NCBI GenBank assembly: GCA_963678705.1 | Contig: OY783207.1 | Span: forward strand, 21,922,001-21,986,000 | Length of the DNA: 64,000 nucleotides | Origin: Panorpa germanica | Lineage: Eukaryota > Arthropoda > Insecta > Mecoptera > Panorpidae | Direction of reading: 5' to 3' | Shown: one piece after another, positions 2,938 through 55,648 of the stretch | Layout of the letters: each line of letters starts with the position of its first letter | Position numbering within the stretch: position 1 is the first letter of the stretch | Program-made: the position numbers and the translations under genes | Notes under the pieces: generated by a model | Database searches by the model: none | What the model saw: only the letters and a program-made list of their open reading frames with translations | Told to the model about the DNA's origin: nothing

Positions 2938-5900
2938 CAGCTATGATAATTATTAATGGAAATTTATTACTTGTTGTTAAGAGTTGTTGCTTGAAGAAAA
3001 AAGTTATTGGTGACTAACTACAATTGAATTTGAAGTGAGTGGTTTGAAAAGAACGTTATTTGGAATAAGCAGTAGAGAAGTAACAAGAGCATCGCAGAAG
3101 TCACAAAGTGCAGTAATCTTACAATGCAACAATACAACCAATATAATCGAAAATAAAAAATCTATGACAACTTCTTATTTCATATTTTATAAAAAAGAAC
3201 AATATTTTTCAACACGATTGTATTTTTCCAATATTTTCTTTTACAAAATCTAAAATACGATTTTTGGGTATAGTTTAAATCTAAAATTCGAATTTCGGAG
3301 TTTGACCGGAAACCGGTGTAACCGGAAGTTAAAACGCGCAGAGCCAGCAAAAGGGGCTACAAATAGGAATACGACGGCGACGGCAACGGCAACGGCGAGT
3401 ATTAGAACTACAGCGAATGGTATGGAACGGTTTGGTTTAGCAGCAGGGCTTTCGATTGGTGCGGAAAGTGGGGAAAATGAGTAAAGTCGCAGAGGAAAAC
3501 GAAACGGCTGGAGGAGCAGGGGGAACTGGACACAATTTCCGTTCTCAAAACAGAAACGAATAGATGGCGCTACGGTTAGTACGAGTACAATCGAATGGGA
3601 AAGTATAAGCAGCAGGCGAGGAAGGCACAGATAAAGAAATTAATGTCTTAGTTTTAGAGTTTTTTTTTATAAAGAATTGTTAAATTATATGTGATAATTG
3701 TATTTAGACTTTGACTTTCTGCATCTTCTTGCGAAGAATGATAGGTTTGTGTTTTAGAGGTACATTGTCATAACTAATATTTTGAAAATTATGTGGAAAA
3801 GCCTAAATCCTCTGGAATCAACATTCCATGTTCTTTATTTATTGTTCTTAAAGTTTATTTAAAAGATATGTTAAATTTCTTAACAATAGAGTCGGAGAGA
3901 CTTGAAAAGAACATATTGTAAATGAAATTAATGGATTTGGGATAAAGCACGAAAATAGAATGATGAAAGATCGCAGTTAATGGAATAGAAAGTCTTAATC
4001 TAACTTGGTTCAAATAGTATAGAGTGCAGTGCAATTATGTTGGAAAAATAGAGGTTATGGGATCCAAGATTTAGACAGAAACTGTTCTTCGGTGCTGTAG
4101 TGTCTTTTTTATTCAAAAATCGATCAAACGATCAACAAGGTGCCTATACATCCACTAAGACAGGGGCCTCTTAGTAACAACTTAATTGTTGCTGAATTTG
4201 ACGTAACATCCAAAAAGAAAAACGTCATTTATTTCTTAAAAAGAATATTGTGATATGAACAAGTCAACGCTCCATACAAAGCGGAAAATATCGGAAACGA
4301 TAACAAATTTATGAGAATTCACTTGCTACCAGTTTGCTGAAATTCAAAAAATGTACCAGAATAAAGAGATGAGTGCTCACAGACTTATTCCCAATACAAA
4401 TATCGACCAATTAATATATAAAACAAGTACATACAATTTTAATTTAAAGTAGGAGGAAGTGGATCACTTGATCCTCTACTCACAAGCCAGTAGCTCAGTG
4501 TCACAAAATTTACTTAATATCATTACGTTGATAGTGCGTAAATTCTAATAGTTAAATAAAAAAAAATCTTTTATTAATAATAGTCATTGCGAAAATGTGT
4601 TTATTAATCCAAATCATTCCATTTAATTTTTCCCTTTTAATTTTTTTTAACATTCCCAAATTAATCCAATCATATTCGATTACAATTTCTGTCGCGCAAT
4701 TGAGATTTTGAAAGTTCAGTATCTTAACTTTAGCCCAAGTTTCTCTAAAGAGCACAATACACATTTGAATATATTGGGCGTGCTCGACTCGAAGTTCGGC
4801 TTGACGAACCGCCATTAAGAGCCGACTTCATGATAAATCAGTAAGTCTTTATATGAAACAGAGGTCACTTTGCGAAGCAGAAGTATTTGCTACTACCACC
4901 AACGCGTTTACCTTCATTTTGGAATGAACTGAACATAGCTTAATCTGGACAAGCATGCAAGGAGAGAGGAGTTATGATGTTAATAAAAATACACTAAAGC
5001 TGAAAGAGAATTCTTATTTTCTTTAATTTATTAATAACAATTAGGTTTACATTAAAACAAAATATTATTATATTATTTGTTTACCCAAATATGAAAATTA
5101 CTTTTATTATTCAGATGTGAACTTCGCGGCATTTGCTTGTTAACTGAAGTTGGCCGCATGTGGTTCTGTTGCGTATTGGTAATCCCGAGCATGTTCGTTT
5201 TGGTTATTGTATGGCAAATTAATGCCTACATCATTTGTGGTATTTGAAATATTAATTGGGCGACCGTCTTTGAGAAAATTGGTTGGTACTTATGATACAG
5301 ATGTAAAATTAAAATATTTAAATAAAAGAACTAAAATCCGTTATTTGTACTTCAACTTTCATCCATAAATCTTGTCATTTTTGTAAACGAGATTGTTGTG
5401 TACTCGTAATGTGAAAACCATTTTCCATTTTCCATTTTCAGTCTCTGGGCTACGAGAACGTTCTGACTTCCCGCGTTCTCAGTGCTGCCAACCGAACCGA
5501 ACGACACCGAACCGAACATACTCCTACTGATGTTCCGTATATGATAATACTTTTACAATTATTTCATTTGGCAATGAAGGGATGTAGAACCAGGTATATA
5601 TATCACTCATTCCATTACATTTGAGGGAAGTAGAAGAGGAAAGGAAGGGGGTGGTGTGGGTGTGGGTGTGGTGGGGTTGTATATCTCCCCATGACGTTCT
5701 AACACTACCACCCCTTGTTCCCCTCTCCGTCCTCTTCACGTGGAACATTTTCATCCCTTCAGAACGAGCTTTTGTATTTTATTCCAGAAAATGAGAGTGT
5801 CAGTTTCTGTGAGCGATGGTCCTTGCACGCTACCTTTATCCAGGGGTGTGAAACAGTTCCGTATAACCAAGGTAGTGTGAATATAATTTTTGAATTTTTA

Positions 5901-20565: not shown

Positions 20566-20694
20566 GTTAGTTCGAAGAAGAGGAGCCGTGTCTAGTTGTT
20601 AGAGGAATCCATGAAGACGAAGTTAGATGTGTCTGGTTGTTCGTATATGGCGGTGATTATTAGCGCTGGTGTCGTGGTGTTCAATTGGCTCATA
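20566..20694 (-). other. hth: homothorax 3' UTR, first part
   Basis: The sequence after the TAA stays comparatively GC-rich for about 130 bases and ends at a good donor, CG|GTGAGT, with the exon boundary near 20565. It reads as transcribed UTR, with no long open frame on the minus strand. The link to the next UTR piece depends on the predicted intron at 20177-20564. Confidence 0.55.
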
Positions 20695-29555: not shown

Positions 29556-31406
29556 TTCCTAAAATGACTAAACATAATATATATATATATGCGAACATAA
29601 AATCATATTAATAATTTTCACTGTTATGTTGGCAGTCGTGCAACCTAAACGATTGCACAGTAGTGTGACTCCAGTAAACATTCGGTAGTTTAGCTTCATC
29701 TAGGCGTTAGCTGGTGCTCTGTGGAGATATCTCCAATACATAAAATACACTTCCAGTCCGAGACCCAGACAAGACTTAAAAGTAGCATAAAACTTAACGG
29801 TAGTTAACGACTGTTAACTTTTAAAAACAATAAAATATTAAAACTGCATTAATGGCGTACTTAACCGCAGATCGTAGAAGCTTGGACGAACAATGCTACG
29901 CCGTAGCATAACGTAGCACGCCGTAGTCTTAACGTAAACTAGGAGTCACTCGTTTTACTATAAAAATCTTTTAAAACTTAAAATAATACATTTTTAATAT
30001 CATCATAAACAAAATAACAGTAAAAACAATATGGCCGCCATTAAATGTGTTTTATTTCGAAACGGAAGTGCACTAAAGTTTGTGTACTTGCTTTATGGTA
30101 GAGAGTGAAGAGGAAGGGAAAGAGAAGGGATAATTTAGATGTACTTTTAGTAGGTTAATTACTTTATAATTGTTGCATTAAAATTTAAGAATCGAAGCAT
30201 TTCGATTTAAGTTGACAAACTTAAGTAATGTTTATTTTATACTTATTATAGTTCATTCACAGATGATGCCGTATTTATAGTTTTGTAGCCTCATATATGT
30301 GGACTTTGCGACTGTCAAGTAAGTTTTATGATTATGTGAGCAGATTAATCAATTTATAAGCGCCATTGTTATTCAATTTGTTTAATACGATGTGTGCAAT
30401 GAGTTCCATGCTGATCTGTGGACGTGTATCTTTATGCAACAACTTGATTTGCAGTGTTTTAAAGAAATAACAGCTATTGGTTCTCTTCTGCTTGTAACTA
30501 ACAATTCTTGGTCAGGGCATTTAGTGAGTATTTGCAGTATCTGTATGAGCCATGCAGATTTATGATATAGGGGTAAAGATTTTACATTTATATTAATTGT
30601 AATTTTTCAGAACGCAACTGAACTCTAAATCATGGTTTAATAACAATAAATAATTATTAGCAGCAGCCATCTGTTGTCCGTTGATGGCGTTAACGAATGA
30701 ATGTGTTTGATAGCGTTGCACGAGTATATCTAGCATCGTACGATATCTGATAGACGAGCCGAGGAACGTGAAACGTTGAATTACCCATAATTCCTAACAA
30801 ATGTTCAAATCCATTGCTTTTCATTTTAGACACGATATATTTCAGTCTACAATTTGACCTGGACTGACATCTATGGACAATTTAAGGGAAACATGGTTTT
30901 CCACTTGCAATTTGAACGTACTCGTATATCATTTAATATGTTTGAAATGCAATATGTGCAGAGTTCCTAAAATGAATGCAAGATTAATGTGACGTCACCG
31001 TCACGTTACACAGCCGTCACGTTACAGTTGTAAAGCAATAACCACGGAATTATAAAGTGATTGGAAATGAGAGGAGATCTGCAGAAGTAGGAGTGCAAGA
31101 TCTTTGAGGTTATCCGGCTATGGTGATTGCTATGGTAATCACTGTAAATTCTAATTACTCGCCACTCGTCATTTTTTTGCAAAATCAAATTTACATAAAT
31201 CAGTAATGGATAAATTGGACATTTAATATCCATTACTCATTATTGAAGACATCATCAGGCCGACTTATAGTTGACATGGTCATAAATCGGTCTTCTTTAG
31301 TTTTGTTTCATTAGTGTTTCTTAGCATTATTAAAAATGTAAAATAAACGGAAATTTTACATATATTTTTTTATGAAAAATATTCATAAATCACTAATTAT
31401 AAATAG
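29556..31406. other. intronic sequence; no exon recognised
   Basis: A CTACG/CGTAG-rich patch is at 29880-29940. GTGACGTCAC (a CRE-type palindrome) is at 30989-30998, within CGTCACGTTACA repeats. TATGGCCGCCATTAAA is at 30031-30046. Nothing coding is recognised. Confidence 0.4.
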
Positions 31407-31454
31407 TTTTTTTTATTTATTTAACGTCAGCGTATTTCCGATGCTGAGTCCTAC
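31407..31454 (-). mobile_element. SINE S1 3'-end fragment
   Basis: TTTATTTATTTAACGTCAGC followed by CGATGCTGAGTCCTA matches the 3' end of the SINE S1 copies at 52688 and 57363. It breaks off at CCTACC, where a GGGCCC-rich segment starts, perhaps another insertion. Confidence 0.6.
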
Positions 31455-32047
31455 CCAGTAAAGTAACGTGCCTTAGACGGGCCCCGTATCAAAATTTGTT
31501 GGGGGGCCCAAATGATGGGTAAATATTTTTCACAAAATGAACAAAGACTCGCATTGCAATAAAATAATTATATATTGAATATACGTTATTACTTACAATT
31601 AATACTCCTAAGAACTAAGCTAAGTACGGCCTAAGAGTTTAAGTGAGATTGTGGATAACATTTTTCGAATTTTTGTTTACACAAGTTTGGGGCCCTTGCA
31701 AATTCCACTAACACTAACTAACTAAAGCTATCCTAGTGAATACAAAAGTGTAAAAGCTATAATATTTTTAACATTAATAAGTTTATTTAGAACATTAATT
31801 TTAGAATACAATGGTAAGTACTTAAAACTAGAATCAATTCAACTTTTTGAAACATCGTTACAATTTCTCCAAAAAAATTGATTTACAAAATTTATTTATG
31901 ACGAAATACAAAGTTATTTGTTAACTGTTACCAAATTTAGAGCTAGAAATTACCAACGTTTAATAATAACATTAGTTACCAATTATTTTAATCTAATACC
32001 TGTAAGTATTTGAAAGAATATGTTAAACAACATAATGAATTGATGGG

Positions 32048-32175
32048 CTACCAATATCTAGGCGTTGCAGGGTAAAAGCCATTGGCATTTTCATGGTAAC
32101 CATTCGGGCTACCATAGGAATAATTAGCGGTGGTGCTAACAAAAGGAGGGAGGTATTCTGGGTGGTCAGACTTAC
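32048..32175 (-). CDS. hth: candidate alternative C-terminal extension of homothorax
   Basis: If the GTAAGT donor after NRAG is not used, the 59-nt exon stays open for 42 more codons. These begin GKSDHPEYLPPF, pass through TTANYSYGSPNGYHEN and end ATPRYW followed by TAG. The extension is rich in Tyr, Gly, Asn and Pro, like the transactivating tails of Meis-type proteins. Counted by hand it holds 59 G or C in 128 bases (46%), while the sequence just beyond the stop is much more AT-rich. A poly(A) hexamer (AATAAA on the minus strand) lies at 31891-31896, about 150 bases past the stop, so a short transcript ending here is possible. The function is not known to me; it would replace the usual AEYYGHHL tail and leave the recognition helix intact. 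It could also be intron that is open by chance, which is why confidence is moderate. Confidence 0.5.
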
Positions 32176-32234
32176 CCGCTCGATTTGATTGGTCGATCAT
32201 TGGTTGTACAATCCTACGCCTTGCATTAATAAAC
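32176..32234 (-). CDS. hth: homothorax exon, homeodomain helix 3
   Basis: This is the penultimate coding exon of homothorax, a Meis-family TALE homeodomain transcription factor that binds DNA with Extradenticle and Hox proteins in the nucleus and promotes Exd nuclear localisation. Read on the minus strand, a polypyrimidine tract and CAG at 32235-32237 precede the exon. The first base completes the Trp codon of the conserved NNW, and 19 codons follow: FINARRRIVQPMIDQSNRA. The INARRR recognition-helix core is intact, with no stop or frameshift. The exon ends with one base of the next codon before GTAAGT at 32170-32175, giving a phase-1 donor that matches the acceptor of the last exon. The preceding exon, with the rest of the homeodomain, must lie beyond the window or in sequence I failed to recognise. 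The assignment to Meis/Hth is secure, because PBX, PREP and TGIF differ in this segment. Confidence 0.95.
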
Positions 32235-32596
32235 CTGGAAAAGAAGAAGAAACATTGATTAGCTTTGAAAATCAAATAGGATAACATATGTTTGAAGAAA
32301 AATCATTTTTTTACGCATAATTTTGTATAAATCGATTATTTTTATTAAAACTATAACGTTGTAAGTATAATATTTAATAGCAGTCTTGGGAACTATACAT
32401 AATGCAAAAACATGTAGAAAAAAAAACCCTTAAAAATATAGTTTTTACCCCAAAAAATATATATAAAAACAACCCCTTGCAAATGTATTTCTGTATAAAA
32501 AATGATTTTGATGTCTTTATTATAAAAAAAATATATACAGAACAAAAAATGTAAAAAAAACATACATTTGGGATCTGAGACAGTTGCGTACACGCA

Positions 32597-32621
32597 CATA
32601 CACACACACACACACACACAA
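32597..32621. repeat. (AC)n microsatellite
   Basis: CATACACACACACACACACA and on, about 22 bp of pure AC. The overlapping minus-strand frames of about 100 codons are low-complexity and not genes. Confidence 0.9.
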
Positions 32622-33092
32622 AATATAGCACAAAGGACACATTTATATATATTTTTCCTATGAATAAATTTAAAACACAAAAAAAATAAAAACATTGTTT
32701 GTATTCAAAGCTATATATCTCGGAAATTACAAAACATACGTGAAAGTGTCTCGTGAACAATTTGTAGAGAATATTATTACGTACAAATCATGTATGGAAA
32801 GTTATGCTCCAGGAGTCGCAGTTTGTGAGATATATGATCTAGAATGTGAGGCATGCGTCAGAGCTAATTAATAAGTAATGCAATTCGTTCACCTTGGAAT
32901 TAATTACTAAATATATTAGCGATGTAAAGTAAATGAAAGTAAAACTAATTAAGATTATGAAAAAGAAAAGAAGGAACATTAAGGTTGACTTTAAAAATAT
33001 GCAAATAGATTAGAAAGACATCTGTCCACTATTTAACCCATCTAATCATTTACTCGCTCAATAATTTCAATGTTTTAACAATTAGTTAATTA

Positions 33093-33166
33093 GGAAGTAA
33101 TGAATTACTAGATTCATTACGCTCAAACCAATAACTCAATATCACAAAATTTACTTAGTATCATAT
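33093..33166. repeat. interspersed repeat K, copy 2
   Basis: Second copy of the segment at 4454-4527, with the core TCACAAAATTTACTTAGTAT. Confidence 0.45.
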
Positions 33167-34780
33167 ATTATGATAGACAGCAAACGGCCCCAGTTAAAAA
33201 CATGCTAAACCGTCCACAATTATTTATTATCATTCAACTGGTCGTATTTCAACAAATGTCAGTAACTTGGTGTTTAGTGCTTAGAAATGTAACTCGCTAC
33301 ACTACTTTATCTAACCAATAACGAAGGTGATATTTACTATTAATACAAATATATATTTCGAATGACGATTAGTAATTAATATTACTTAATAACATTATAA
33401 TTATTATTTAGTTTAGTAAACTTTGTTCTTTTATAATTTGTGTTGTGTAGCTTAAGGATTTATTATTTAGTAGGTAATATTTCCAGGTAGTATTAAAAGG
33501 ATTTAAATAAATATCAAACCGTAGATAGAAATGCCAAGGTTTAATGTGGATCAGACTAATGTCTATACATAATTATTGGATATATTTGGGTAATTATATT
33601 TTTTTAGGAAACCACTTATGTTTAATCCGGATTAGTGTTTAATTTCATGTGGAAAGAGTTTCTAATAGGGTATAACTTAAACATAATGATCCTTGAACCG
33701 CTCTTTGTGTTGTAAGTTTGTCTGTTTTAGAGTAAAGACGTGTCATTAAATAAACATTCAATTGGTAAAATATAGTTTTGTATTCTATATATATATTGGA
33801 CGAAAACCAACATCCATGATCCAAAAGCATCTGCGCAATTGTCTTTGTCAAAGTTATCCCAACAAACAAACAACACTGTATTAGAAATACCAATTAAAAC
33901 AAAATATTAAATTAAACAAAGTGTTTCGTTTCCTGATCCAAACTGATTTACAACTGGTTAATAAAACATTAGTGCAAGATCACTTGACTCCGTTTCACAT
34001 GCTTAATAATATGTATTACTTGCATATTTGATATTCTTACTAGTTAGGACCTCCTTTATTTCTGCTGTCAATTTATATTCCAAAACAATTCATAACATAT
34101 TCATCAGATAATTTTCAAATGTGCATTATAATTTTTCACTGCATCTTTTTAAATTCATTGTCAAATGGGGTTCAATATTGTAATACAGTTACAAGTATTA
34201 TGGTATTACGAGAAGGGGTTGCCGTTCAACTCACCCACTTCCCTATGAGATGTTGAGTAGTGTGGGTGGTATCAACCCTTGGTATAGGGTTCATATTATA
34301 TTGGGGACAATGTTTTTCTAGACAATTTGTTCGCCAAAACATTAATCACAAACATACATAGCTGACAACTTATGCATGACTGACTCGTGTGCGCCCTTGC
34401 CTCTTCTTCTCCCTCCTACCTCAACCAACGAAGCTACTACCCGAATTGTGATCTGTTCACCCTGCGTGTTGTGTTGTGTAGTGTAGTGTTGCATCCCTTT
34501 AAATTTTGAAGGGTTGTATGAATATTTAGTGCGAAAATAGCGAGATTTTTTATCTTTATATTTGCAAGAAAAATTTCAAATACGAGGATTTTATAATGAC
34601 TTTTTAATAAGACTCACAAAAAAAATCGTAAATTGAACTGAGTCTAAAGACTTGGGCTGTTAGGACAGTAGGGTATAAATGTTTAGCGAAAAATGATATT
34701 CAATCTTTGGTGTAGATGATTCAAAAGATGCTTAATACCAGGCTTCTTGTGAAAAATGTCTTCTTGTCAAATAACAATAC

Positions 34781-53698: not shown

Positions 53699-55399
53699 TG
53701 TACGTACATTGTTTAACAGCTAGATTAGTTCTGCTACAATTGACTGTATCTCCAATATTTACATTTAAAAATAAATAAGGTTCTTTTCTTTGTTGACTTG
53801 TTAAAATCTCTTGAAAAATAAATGAGAAGTTTCCTAAATCTTAAGTCTCCACACAAAGGGATTCATCGAGTGAGTGGCCTGGGAGGATTGTGCTGCAGTA
53901 CCATACGATGCGATGCATTCCCAAGCGTTCCGATAGATGTGCATCGCCGCGCTACGCCGTGCTACGATGGTGTGTTTCGCGGATATGAATGTCGTATCTC
54001 AATGCTCCTTGCTACGTGTGTCTACGGTCTTGAGTTACATTATTAGAATTGTGCAACGGTTGCAGCATTAGTTGTAAGGATTTAAATCCTTGAGGATTAG
54101 AAGGCAAGGATTTAAAGCTATGTGGGTGACTTGGAATGGAGTTGTGAGGAGAATGGGTGGCAACGATGTGACGTCATTAAAAGGGGATTGAACTCGCCAC
54201 AACGGGTAGGATTGCTGGAAAGGTTTAACGGCAAATGATCCGGAATTGCTAAGGAATGGTATTACGCAATAAAAAAGGAGGATGCGTAAAGAACGTCTGA
54301 TGAGTTTCAATCTTGAAACTACCATATGCTGTGATGTTTTAAGATATTATTTCAACTGGTTTTTTTTGTAGCAGCTAGTTGAATTAATAAATAAGTTTAC
54401 ATAATATTATGTTTATTATTGTACACTAAAATGCAAAACGTGTTACTATCAAATTATTAGTACAACATTTACTGATACCTTGCAAAATTATTAAAGCCAT
54501 CCGAAAAAATACAACATCTAAGGGTAACAAGTACTTTTACAATAAACCAAAATATTTTTATATTATTTTTTCACACATATAAAAATTGCTTTTACTATTT
54601 CTCTTTCCAAATTATTTTAACTAAAATGTGAAGCTCGTGATATTTGATTAATAACTGATGTTGACCGCGAGCATGCTCGGTTCCCAGCCAAACCCAACAC
54701 ATTCAAGTGCGTAAGGGGCCTTTAACATTTCCTCGCAAAACTATTTGTAAACCACATTTGTTTAATTTCAATTAATTTCAATCATAATGAACAAGACTAT
54801 TTAAATATTGGTTACGTATACAAACTGTTTATAAACCCTGTGTTCATTCATAGTCACGTGTCTTTTGATAACAGCGTAAAGATAATATGTTAAATTTGTA
54901 ATTACATTTGTGTGATATGACTACAGCATCAGTAGTCCCCTTCTTTTCTCTACCCAGTAACACCACCCCCTCTAACTCCGACCAGTGCCAGTCCCACTAC
55001 CACCTCGCGGACTAACGCGGAATTAATGTTATTTGGAATTTATATTATTCAAATATGTAATTATAAAGAAATGGTTCGTGAATTGTTTAATTAAATGTAA
55101 TGATTTTAATTAATTTTATGAAAAATTTGTTCGGTTGCTTGTTGTAAAGCAGAGCGCGTTTAATGAATTATCTAAATATATCAAAAGAATTAACTGAAAT
55201 CATTAAACAAAACGGATAATATTATGTCCTTTCGTATACATACACCTATGTCACAAAAAGTGAATAACGTAGCACAGTATTACAGTCAAATTAGCAACCT
55301 GGCAAGCCACAGAATGAAATAGATCTAAAAGTCTTGAAATAATAATAGAAAAGATCGTCAAAAATCACAATCAAAAGTAATCATTGTAAAACCCCAGTT
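53699..55399. other. intronic sequence; no exon recognised
   Basis: A CTACG-rich patch is at 53945-54025 (CGCGCTACGCCGTGCTACGA) and a palindromic TGACGTCA at 54169-54176. Repeat J is at 54460-54525. Open frames at 53822 and 54068 are not convincing. Confidence 0.35.
54460..54525 (+). repeat. interspersed repeat J, copy 2
   Basis: Second copy of the block at 34781-34840, with the same order of words and about 80-85% similarity by eye. Confidence 0.5.
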
Positions 55400-55648
55400 C
55401 ACCTGTACAAAAATTATATTAGGTTTGTCGATAGATGCCAATATAGCGAAATAGGGACTTTTGATCATATTACATTTGAATGCATAAATTATAGTTTACA
55501 AAGATCAAAATTCAATAGTGAAATATTAGATGTGATTAAAACATTTCCTGTTAATACTAAAGTTTTGTTAAATGATTCAAAATTAATTAGTGAATTATTT
55601 AAATATTTAGACAATTGTAAAATAGAATGTTATATTAAATATATATAA
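55400..55648 (+). pseudogene. LINE ORF2 C-terminal fragment
   Basis: The uninterrupted 83-codon frame ends at TAA (55646-55648). It contains IRFVDRCQYSEIGTFDHITF followed by ECINYSLQRSKF. This matches the cysteine-rich C-terminal region of arthropod non-LTR retrotransposons (C.....E...H..FEC..Y...R), where a zinc-knuckle-like motif follows the reverse transcriptase. Part of the usual Cys pair (CxxC) is missing. A short 3' tail follows, ending AAATAAATAAATAAC near 55694-55709. The upstream reverse transcriptase is not adjacent, so this is a 5'-truncated insertion, the usual fate of LINE copies. Confidence 0.72.

Follow-up and report, generated by a model that had tools for sequence, protein, structure and literature searches.

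In Panorpa germanica (Mecoptera), the recognition-helix exon of homothorax (hth), exon 13, is followed without interruption by a 42-codon open frame which, judging from the DNA, is somewhat more probably than otherwise a genuine alternative C-terminus of the Homothorax (Hth) protein, with exon 13 then acting as a composite terminal exon. The window analysed here is a stretch of 64,000 nucleotides (contig OY783207.1 of assembly GCA_963678705.1, positions 21,922,001 to 21,986,000), to which all coordinates refer, and in which the open frame, its coding-like signature, and the rival exon 14 can be read directly. This explanation is favoured by the open frame, the three-base periodicity, a frame-aware score, the limits of a GC-rich segment, the amino-acid make-up, the 3' context, and the position of exon 14. 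It is weakened by the blindness of the periodicity measure to frame, the lower value of exon 14, a fly isoform list without such a form, a donor that differs in four insects, and tails that do not align significantly with each other.

Table 1. Features of the 3' part of hth in the window (positions in the 64,000-nucleotide stretch)
Feature	Position	Strand	Details
homothorax exon 13, recognition-helix exon	32234-32176	minus	59 nt; encodes (W)FINARRRIVQPMIDQSNRA; CAG before, GTAAGT after
5' splice site GTAAGT, bypassed in the putative read-through form	32175-32170	minus	
Extension, candidate alternative C-terminal tail GKSDHPEYLPPFVSTTANYSYGSPNGYHENANGFYPATPRYW	32176-32051	minus	42 codons; first codon starts with the final exon 13 base
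Stop codon TAG of the extension	32050-32048	minus	
Candidate poly(A) signal AATAAA	31896-31891	minus	TGTA at 31910-31907 before, TTTTTTTGG at 31877-31869 after
Intron 13, containing the extension	32175-20865	minus	11,311 bases, interval from exon 13 to exon 14
Canonical terminal coding exon 14, (A)VFSPHAGPSGAYSPDAGMGYMMDGQAQMMAHRPGDPTGFHQGYAHYPPAEYYGHHL plus stop TAA	~20865-20695	minus	tblastn

By its sequence, the exon at 32234-32176 is the MEIS-type TALE recognition-helix exon of a homothorax/MEIS gene. Its peptide FINARRRIVQPMIDQSNRA exactly matches residues 49-67 of 3k2a_A (PDB), a MEIS homeodomain chain, and hth exon 13 likewise measures 59 bp in Drosophila, Aedes, Anopheles, Bombyx, Tribolium, Apis, and Acyrthosiphon (PMC7392893, Table 1), so that both the gene and the 59-nt recognition-helix exon had been named correctly in the initial annotation. 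Immediately 5' of the exon stands TTTCTTCTTCTTTTCCAG, and the exon borders agree with the CAG-exon-GTGAGT/GTAAGT rule reported for hth in PMC7392893. The donor GTAAGT is shared with Tribolium and Acyrthosiphon, whereas the same Table 1 gives gtaact, gtaata, gttagt, and gtgtgt in Drosophila, Aedes, Anopheles, and Bombyx. The first part of the homeodomain has no match within the 64-kb window and should lie more than 31 kb upstream of exon 13.

The reading frame of exon 13 stays open across GTAAGT up to the TAG without a frameshift, and the coordinates bear out the earlier claim of a 42-codon open frame past the donor that then stops. The G+C content, initially counted as 46% against lower flanks, is indeed 0.457 in 32175-32049 (0.468 in the 126 coding bases) vs. 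0.24 in the 200 bases after the extension and 0.235 in the 200 bases before it. The maximal GC-rich segment in 31000-33400 spans 32224-32045, with limits at most 10 nt from the exon start at 32234 and 3 nt from the stop at 32048; because such segments are common in the window (30 score at least 80% of the tail's segment, which is itself counted), the agreement of the limits is what counts. The tail is rich in Tyr, Asn, Gly, and Pro and is probably disordered. The stretch is also open in another forward frame (50 codons), which makes two of the three forward frames. At the RNA level, a long-range stem can form between the beginning of exon 13 and the final part of the tail (32040-32240, minus strand).

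Openness alone is weak evidence of coding: the frame was kept in 7.96% of 20,000 dinucleotide-shuffled tails and in 3.2% of 5,000 shuffled intron pieces. When every GTRAGT in the window was read in each frame (171 cases), six remained open over 42 codons, and two of the six are the exon 13 donor in two frames. The phase-by-base G statistic, which measures three-base periodicity, is 22.4 for the tail, a value reached by 8 of the 20,000 shuffles (0.04%), while 0.015% were both open and as periodic (~3 of 1,590 open shuffles). Scanning the 64 kb on both strands, 65 of 7,684 open 126-base windows were as periodic as the tail, and 63 of these were also as GC-rich. They sit at four places, namely the tail with its antisense, ~20777-20643, 3292-3501, and a single window at 5213, the second group spanning the end of exon 14 out of the exon 14 frame and past its stop, and the third being a pyrimidine-rich stretch. 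The statistic does not distinguish between frames. Seven sense windows at the tail reach the threshold, four of them in the claimed frame and the remaining three in the alternative open one. Read in its own frame, exon 14 attains G = 16.6 in its best 126-base window (rank 192 of 7,684) and 20.1 over its whole 168 bases; the tail is more periodic than this exon, the only undoubted long coding exon in the window. Owing to the frame-blindness and the lower value of exon 14, the periodicity is a good sign of something unusual rather than a calibrated coding test.

A frame-aware measure, the purine-any-pyrimidine score, is 1.31 in the claimed frame vs. 1.05 and 0.63 in the others. This value was reached by 58 of 20,000 shuffles and by 41 of the 7,684 open windows, 13 of them at the tail (nine sense, four antisense) and the others scattered. 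The scores by frame are 1.05, 1.04, and 0.91 for exon 14 and 1.05, 0.83, and 1.06 for exon 13; as neither is frame-specific, the score is a poor guide in this gene. When open windows were ranked by the similarity of their amino-acid make-up to the canonical tail, the exact extension came 15th of 7,637, and the 14 windows above it comprise eight overlapping exon 14, five overlapping the tail itself, and one unrelated window (61373, minus strand). The coding-like composition ascribed to the extension in the initial annotation therefore stands in part: the periodicity relative to shuffles, the frame-aware score, and the GC limits speak for it, whereas the frame-blind statistic and the lower value of exon 14 leave it short of proof. 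That the extension is coding sequence is thus supported, not proven.

The ordinary end of the protein lies elsewhere. A tblastn search with the fly Hth tail matched 20865-20698 on the same strand with 73% identity (E 3.9e-18), and by this match the insect Hth C-terminal exon lies 11.3 kb downstream of exon 13; the extension would consequently be a second, alternative end and not the sole one. Two acceptors of exon 14 (CAAAG and ATGCAG, 20865-20846, minus strand) are separated by 18 nt and share the frame, and the choice between them would keep or drop VFSPHA. Past its stop we found a good donor, CG/GTGAGT (intron from 20564), and a strong acceptor of poly-T plus ACAG (exon from 20176), both on the minus strand, and 20565-20176 is likely an intron in the hth 3'UTR, 130 nt past the stop.

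For the alternative end, an AATAAA placed initially about 150 bases beyond the stop is present, 152 nt past it. The hexamer occurs 156 times on the minus strand of the window, giving a ~31% chance of one within 150 nt. Nine of the 156 have a comparable TGTA and U/GU-rich context (~3% by chance in 200 nt), under criteria set post hoc, after the site was seen. The same criteria recover no site in 20700-17000, where the normal 3' end may lie, and hence have low sensitivity. In flies, the hth 3'UTR has miR-iab-4/8 sites used in the nervous system, and the choice of 3'UTR affects whether these microRNAs repress hth (PMC8904962 and PMC10551640). In the 6 kb past the exon 14 stop, which may differ in length from the normal 3'UTR, we counted six TATACG words (20647, 18492, 18096, 16001, 15530, and 15161), where the 24 in the 64 kb would predict ~2.3, and two TACGTA words (18490 and 18434; ~1.4 expected). 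The counts are too small for proof, and the short alternative 3'UTR has neither word. The evidence for miR-iab-4/8 sites in the window is thus thin. A TATACGA stands at 20647, 48 nt past the exon 14 stop, and the ATACGTAA word at 18492-18484 (minus strand), which overlaps an iab-4-type 6-mer in the putative hth 3'UTR, is presumably an 8-mer site for miR-iab-8-5p.

Explanations other than a real protein end have to be weighed against these observations. A GC-rich intron patch could carry an open frame by chance, as expected from the ~8% of shuffles that stay open, the two open forward frames out of three, the 30 GC-rich segments at 80% or more of the score, and the commonness of AATAAA; nevertheless, openness, periodicity, and segment limits coincide here, and with ~3 of 1,590 open shuffles as periodic as the tail we consider chance unlikely. 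To the same degree we doubt that a non-coding element at the donor, such as a splicing enhancer, an RNA structure regulating exon 13, or a conserved block, lifts the G+C and leaves the frame open by accident. Such an element would fit the frame-blindness of the periodicity measure and the predicted folding of exon 13 plus tail RNA (-54.2 kcal/mol, z -2.76, 1 of 200 shuffles as good), the latter being a lead only, from one test of one region with no alignment. It would also fit work by Glazov, who in 2005 reportedly described an intronic ultraconserved element of insect hth, tied to splicing and located at an exon-intron junction that flies and Anopheles share without a difference, and in 2006 is said to have described RNA secondary structures in dipteran hth pre-mRNA. 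However, such an identical fly-mosquito element should not lie at the exon 13 donor, since this reads gtaact in Drosophila and gttagt in Anopheles (PMC7392893, Table 1), and a non-coding element would not be expected to show the periodicity, the frame-aware score, or a GC edge that coincides with the stop.

The stretch may also be coding by descent only, i.e. the remnant of a composite terminal exon that has fallen out of use and is still open because its loss was recent. The GTAAGT donor, which favours splicing, and a Drosophila isoform list without such a form would suit a relic, but all 42 codons are stop-free, the signature stays sharp right to the end of the frame, and decay would be expected in a sequence so AT-rich, making this slightly less credible than either chance or a non-coding element. 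Finally, read-through might occur but amount to no more than noise from intronic polyadenylation, its RNA or protein being degraded, given that cryptic poly(A) signals are common in long introns and normally suppressed by U1 (PMC10551640); this would leave the coding-like signature of the extension unexplained, and we regard it as highly improbable.

A real alternative end, the reading we prefer, can be compared with described isoforms. According to PMC7392893, D. melanogaster has seven hth isoforms (A, C, and H long; E, F, and I without the homeodomain; G without the MH domain). They vary at the N-terminus or in the linker that joins the MH domain to the homeodomain, or are missing one of the two domains, and a homeodomain with a new tail is absent among these seven. 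Isoforms E, F, and I resemble the proposed form in that the same gene yields an early protein end, by an extended exon 6 in F and I, which follow the same read-through logic, or by an alternative exon 7 in E (PMC7392893). They end before the homeodomain, however, whereas here the homeodomain is complete and the tail alone changes. Diaphorina citri has two hth forms, one of them without the homeodomain (PMC9933525). Among the matches listed in open-licence full text, as far as the excerpts extend, no insect hth with an intact homeodomain and a swapped tail is described.

In vertebrates, several MEIS C-terminal variants retain the homeodomain and have swapped tails behind it. These variants arise by splicing of other exons and not, as proposed here, by read-through of the recognition-helix exon. 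MEIS2 (and MEIS1) C-terminal splice variants share with the proposed form a difference in the C-terminal transactivation region, and some MEIS2 forms without this region can act as repressors (PMC5953537, citing other work). MEIS1D/MEIS1-HdL is likewise a MEIS isoform with a new short C-terminus, but results from a frameshift and lacks the homeodomain (PMC13379096). Alternative last exons formed by intronic polyadenylation also place a stop and a poly(A) site inside an intron of the longer gene model and thereby give another C-terminus (PMC10551640), whereas cleavage in the present case is predicted only.

We also considered where the tail might come from. A descent from a duplicated exon 14 is unproven, as 10.9% of 5,000 shuffles align as well and BLASTP gives E 0.025 over nine residues. 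An origin as part of a transposon or repeat was rejected: a search of the window for further copies of the tail returned the self match alone below E 1, there is no tandem repeat in 30.0-34.5 kb, and no Rfam family reaches its gathering score in the window. Pfam gave no match for exon 13 plus tail and missed the homeodomain part too, so the scan is insensitive on so short a piece. Patterns of the exon and tail matched 70 times in genome_contigs and 16 times in viral_contigs, none confirmed by tblastn; as these collections are bacterial, archaeal, and viral, the absence of relatives there says little. Six peptide strings had no occurrence in open-licence full text. Elsewhere in the window, a 99-codon open frame at 55349-55648 (plus strand) ends in FDHITFECINYSLQR, which we take to recall the tail region of non-LTR retrotransposon proteins, and has no Pfam match above the cut-off. 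At 3250-3639 (minus strand), a long, pyrimidine-rich open frame with an AVAVAVAVV run is strongly periodic in three-base steps on both strands and has no Pfam match up to E 0.1.

If the extension is a real alternative end, exon 13 would have two fates, with splicing at GTAAGT competing with cleavage and polyadenylation after 31896. Use of GTAAGT by U1 and the spliceosome would join exon 13 to exon 14 and end the protein in ...YPPAEYYGHHL, whereas skipping of the donor and cutting of the RNA after the AATAAA at 31896 would turn exon 13 into a composite last exon, with a protein ending in ...NGFYPATPRYW and a 3'UTR of ~160-190 nt. Transcription and cleavage are inferred from the sequence, as are the protein and everything said of its function. 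The read-through product would retain the MEIS/HTH domain and the full homeodomain and have its tail swapped; it should therefore still bind Exd, Hox, and DNA, and would differ in the tail, the region that holds the transactivation domain in MEIS2. Its short private 3'UTR may escape control through the normal hth 3'UTR, including that by miR-iab-4/8. A wider version, in which an ancient, regulated second Hth C-terminus exists outside flies, with a switch between donor and poly(A) site, a Tyr/Asn/Gly/Pro-rich tail, and a private 3'UTR that together would keep Hox-cofactor targeting, change the output, and escape the control that Hox-cluster microRNAs exert through the normal hth 3'UTR, is conceivable but doubtful. 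As a cofactor, Hth shapes the targeting of Hox proteins. A form with both domains and a swapped tail, if real, would part DNA targeting from output within one gene, and the choice of tail would be coupled to the choice of 3'UTR.
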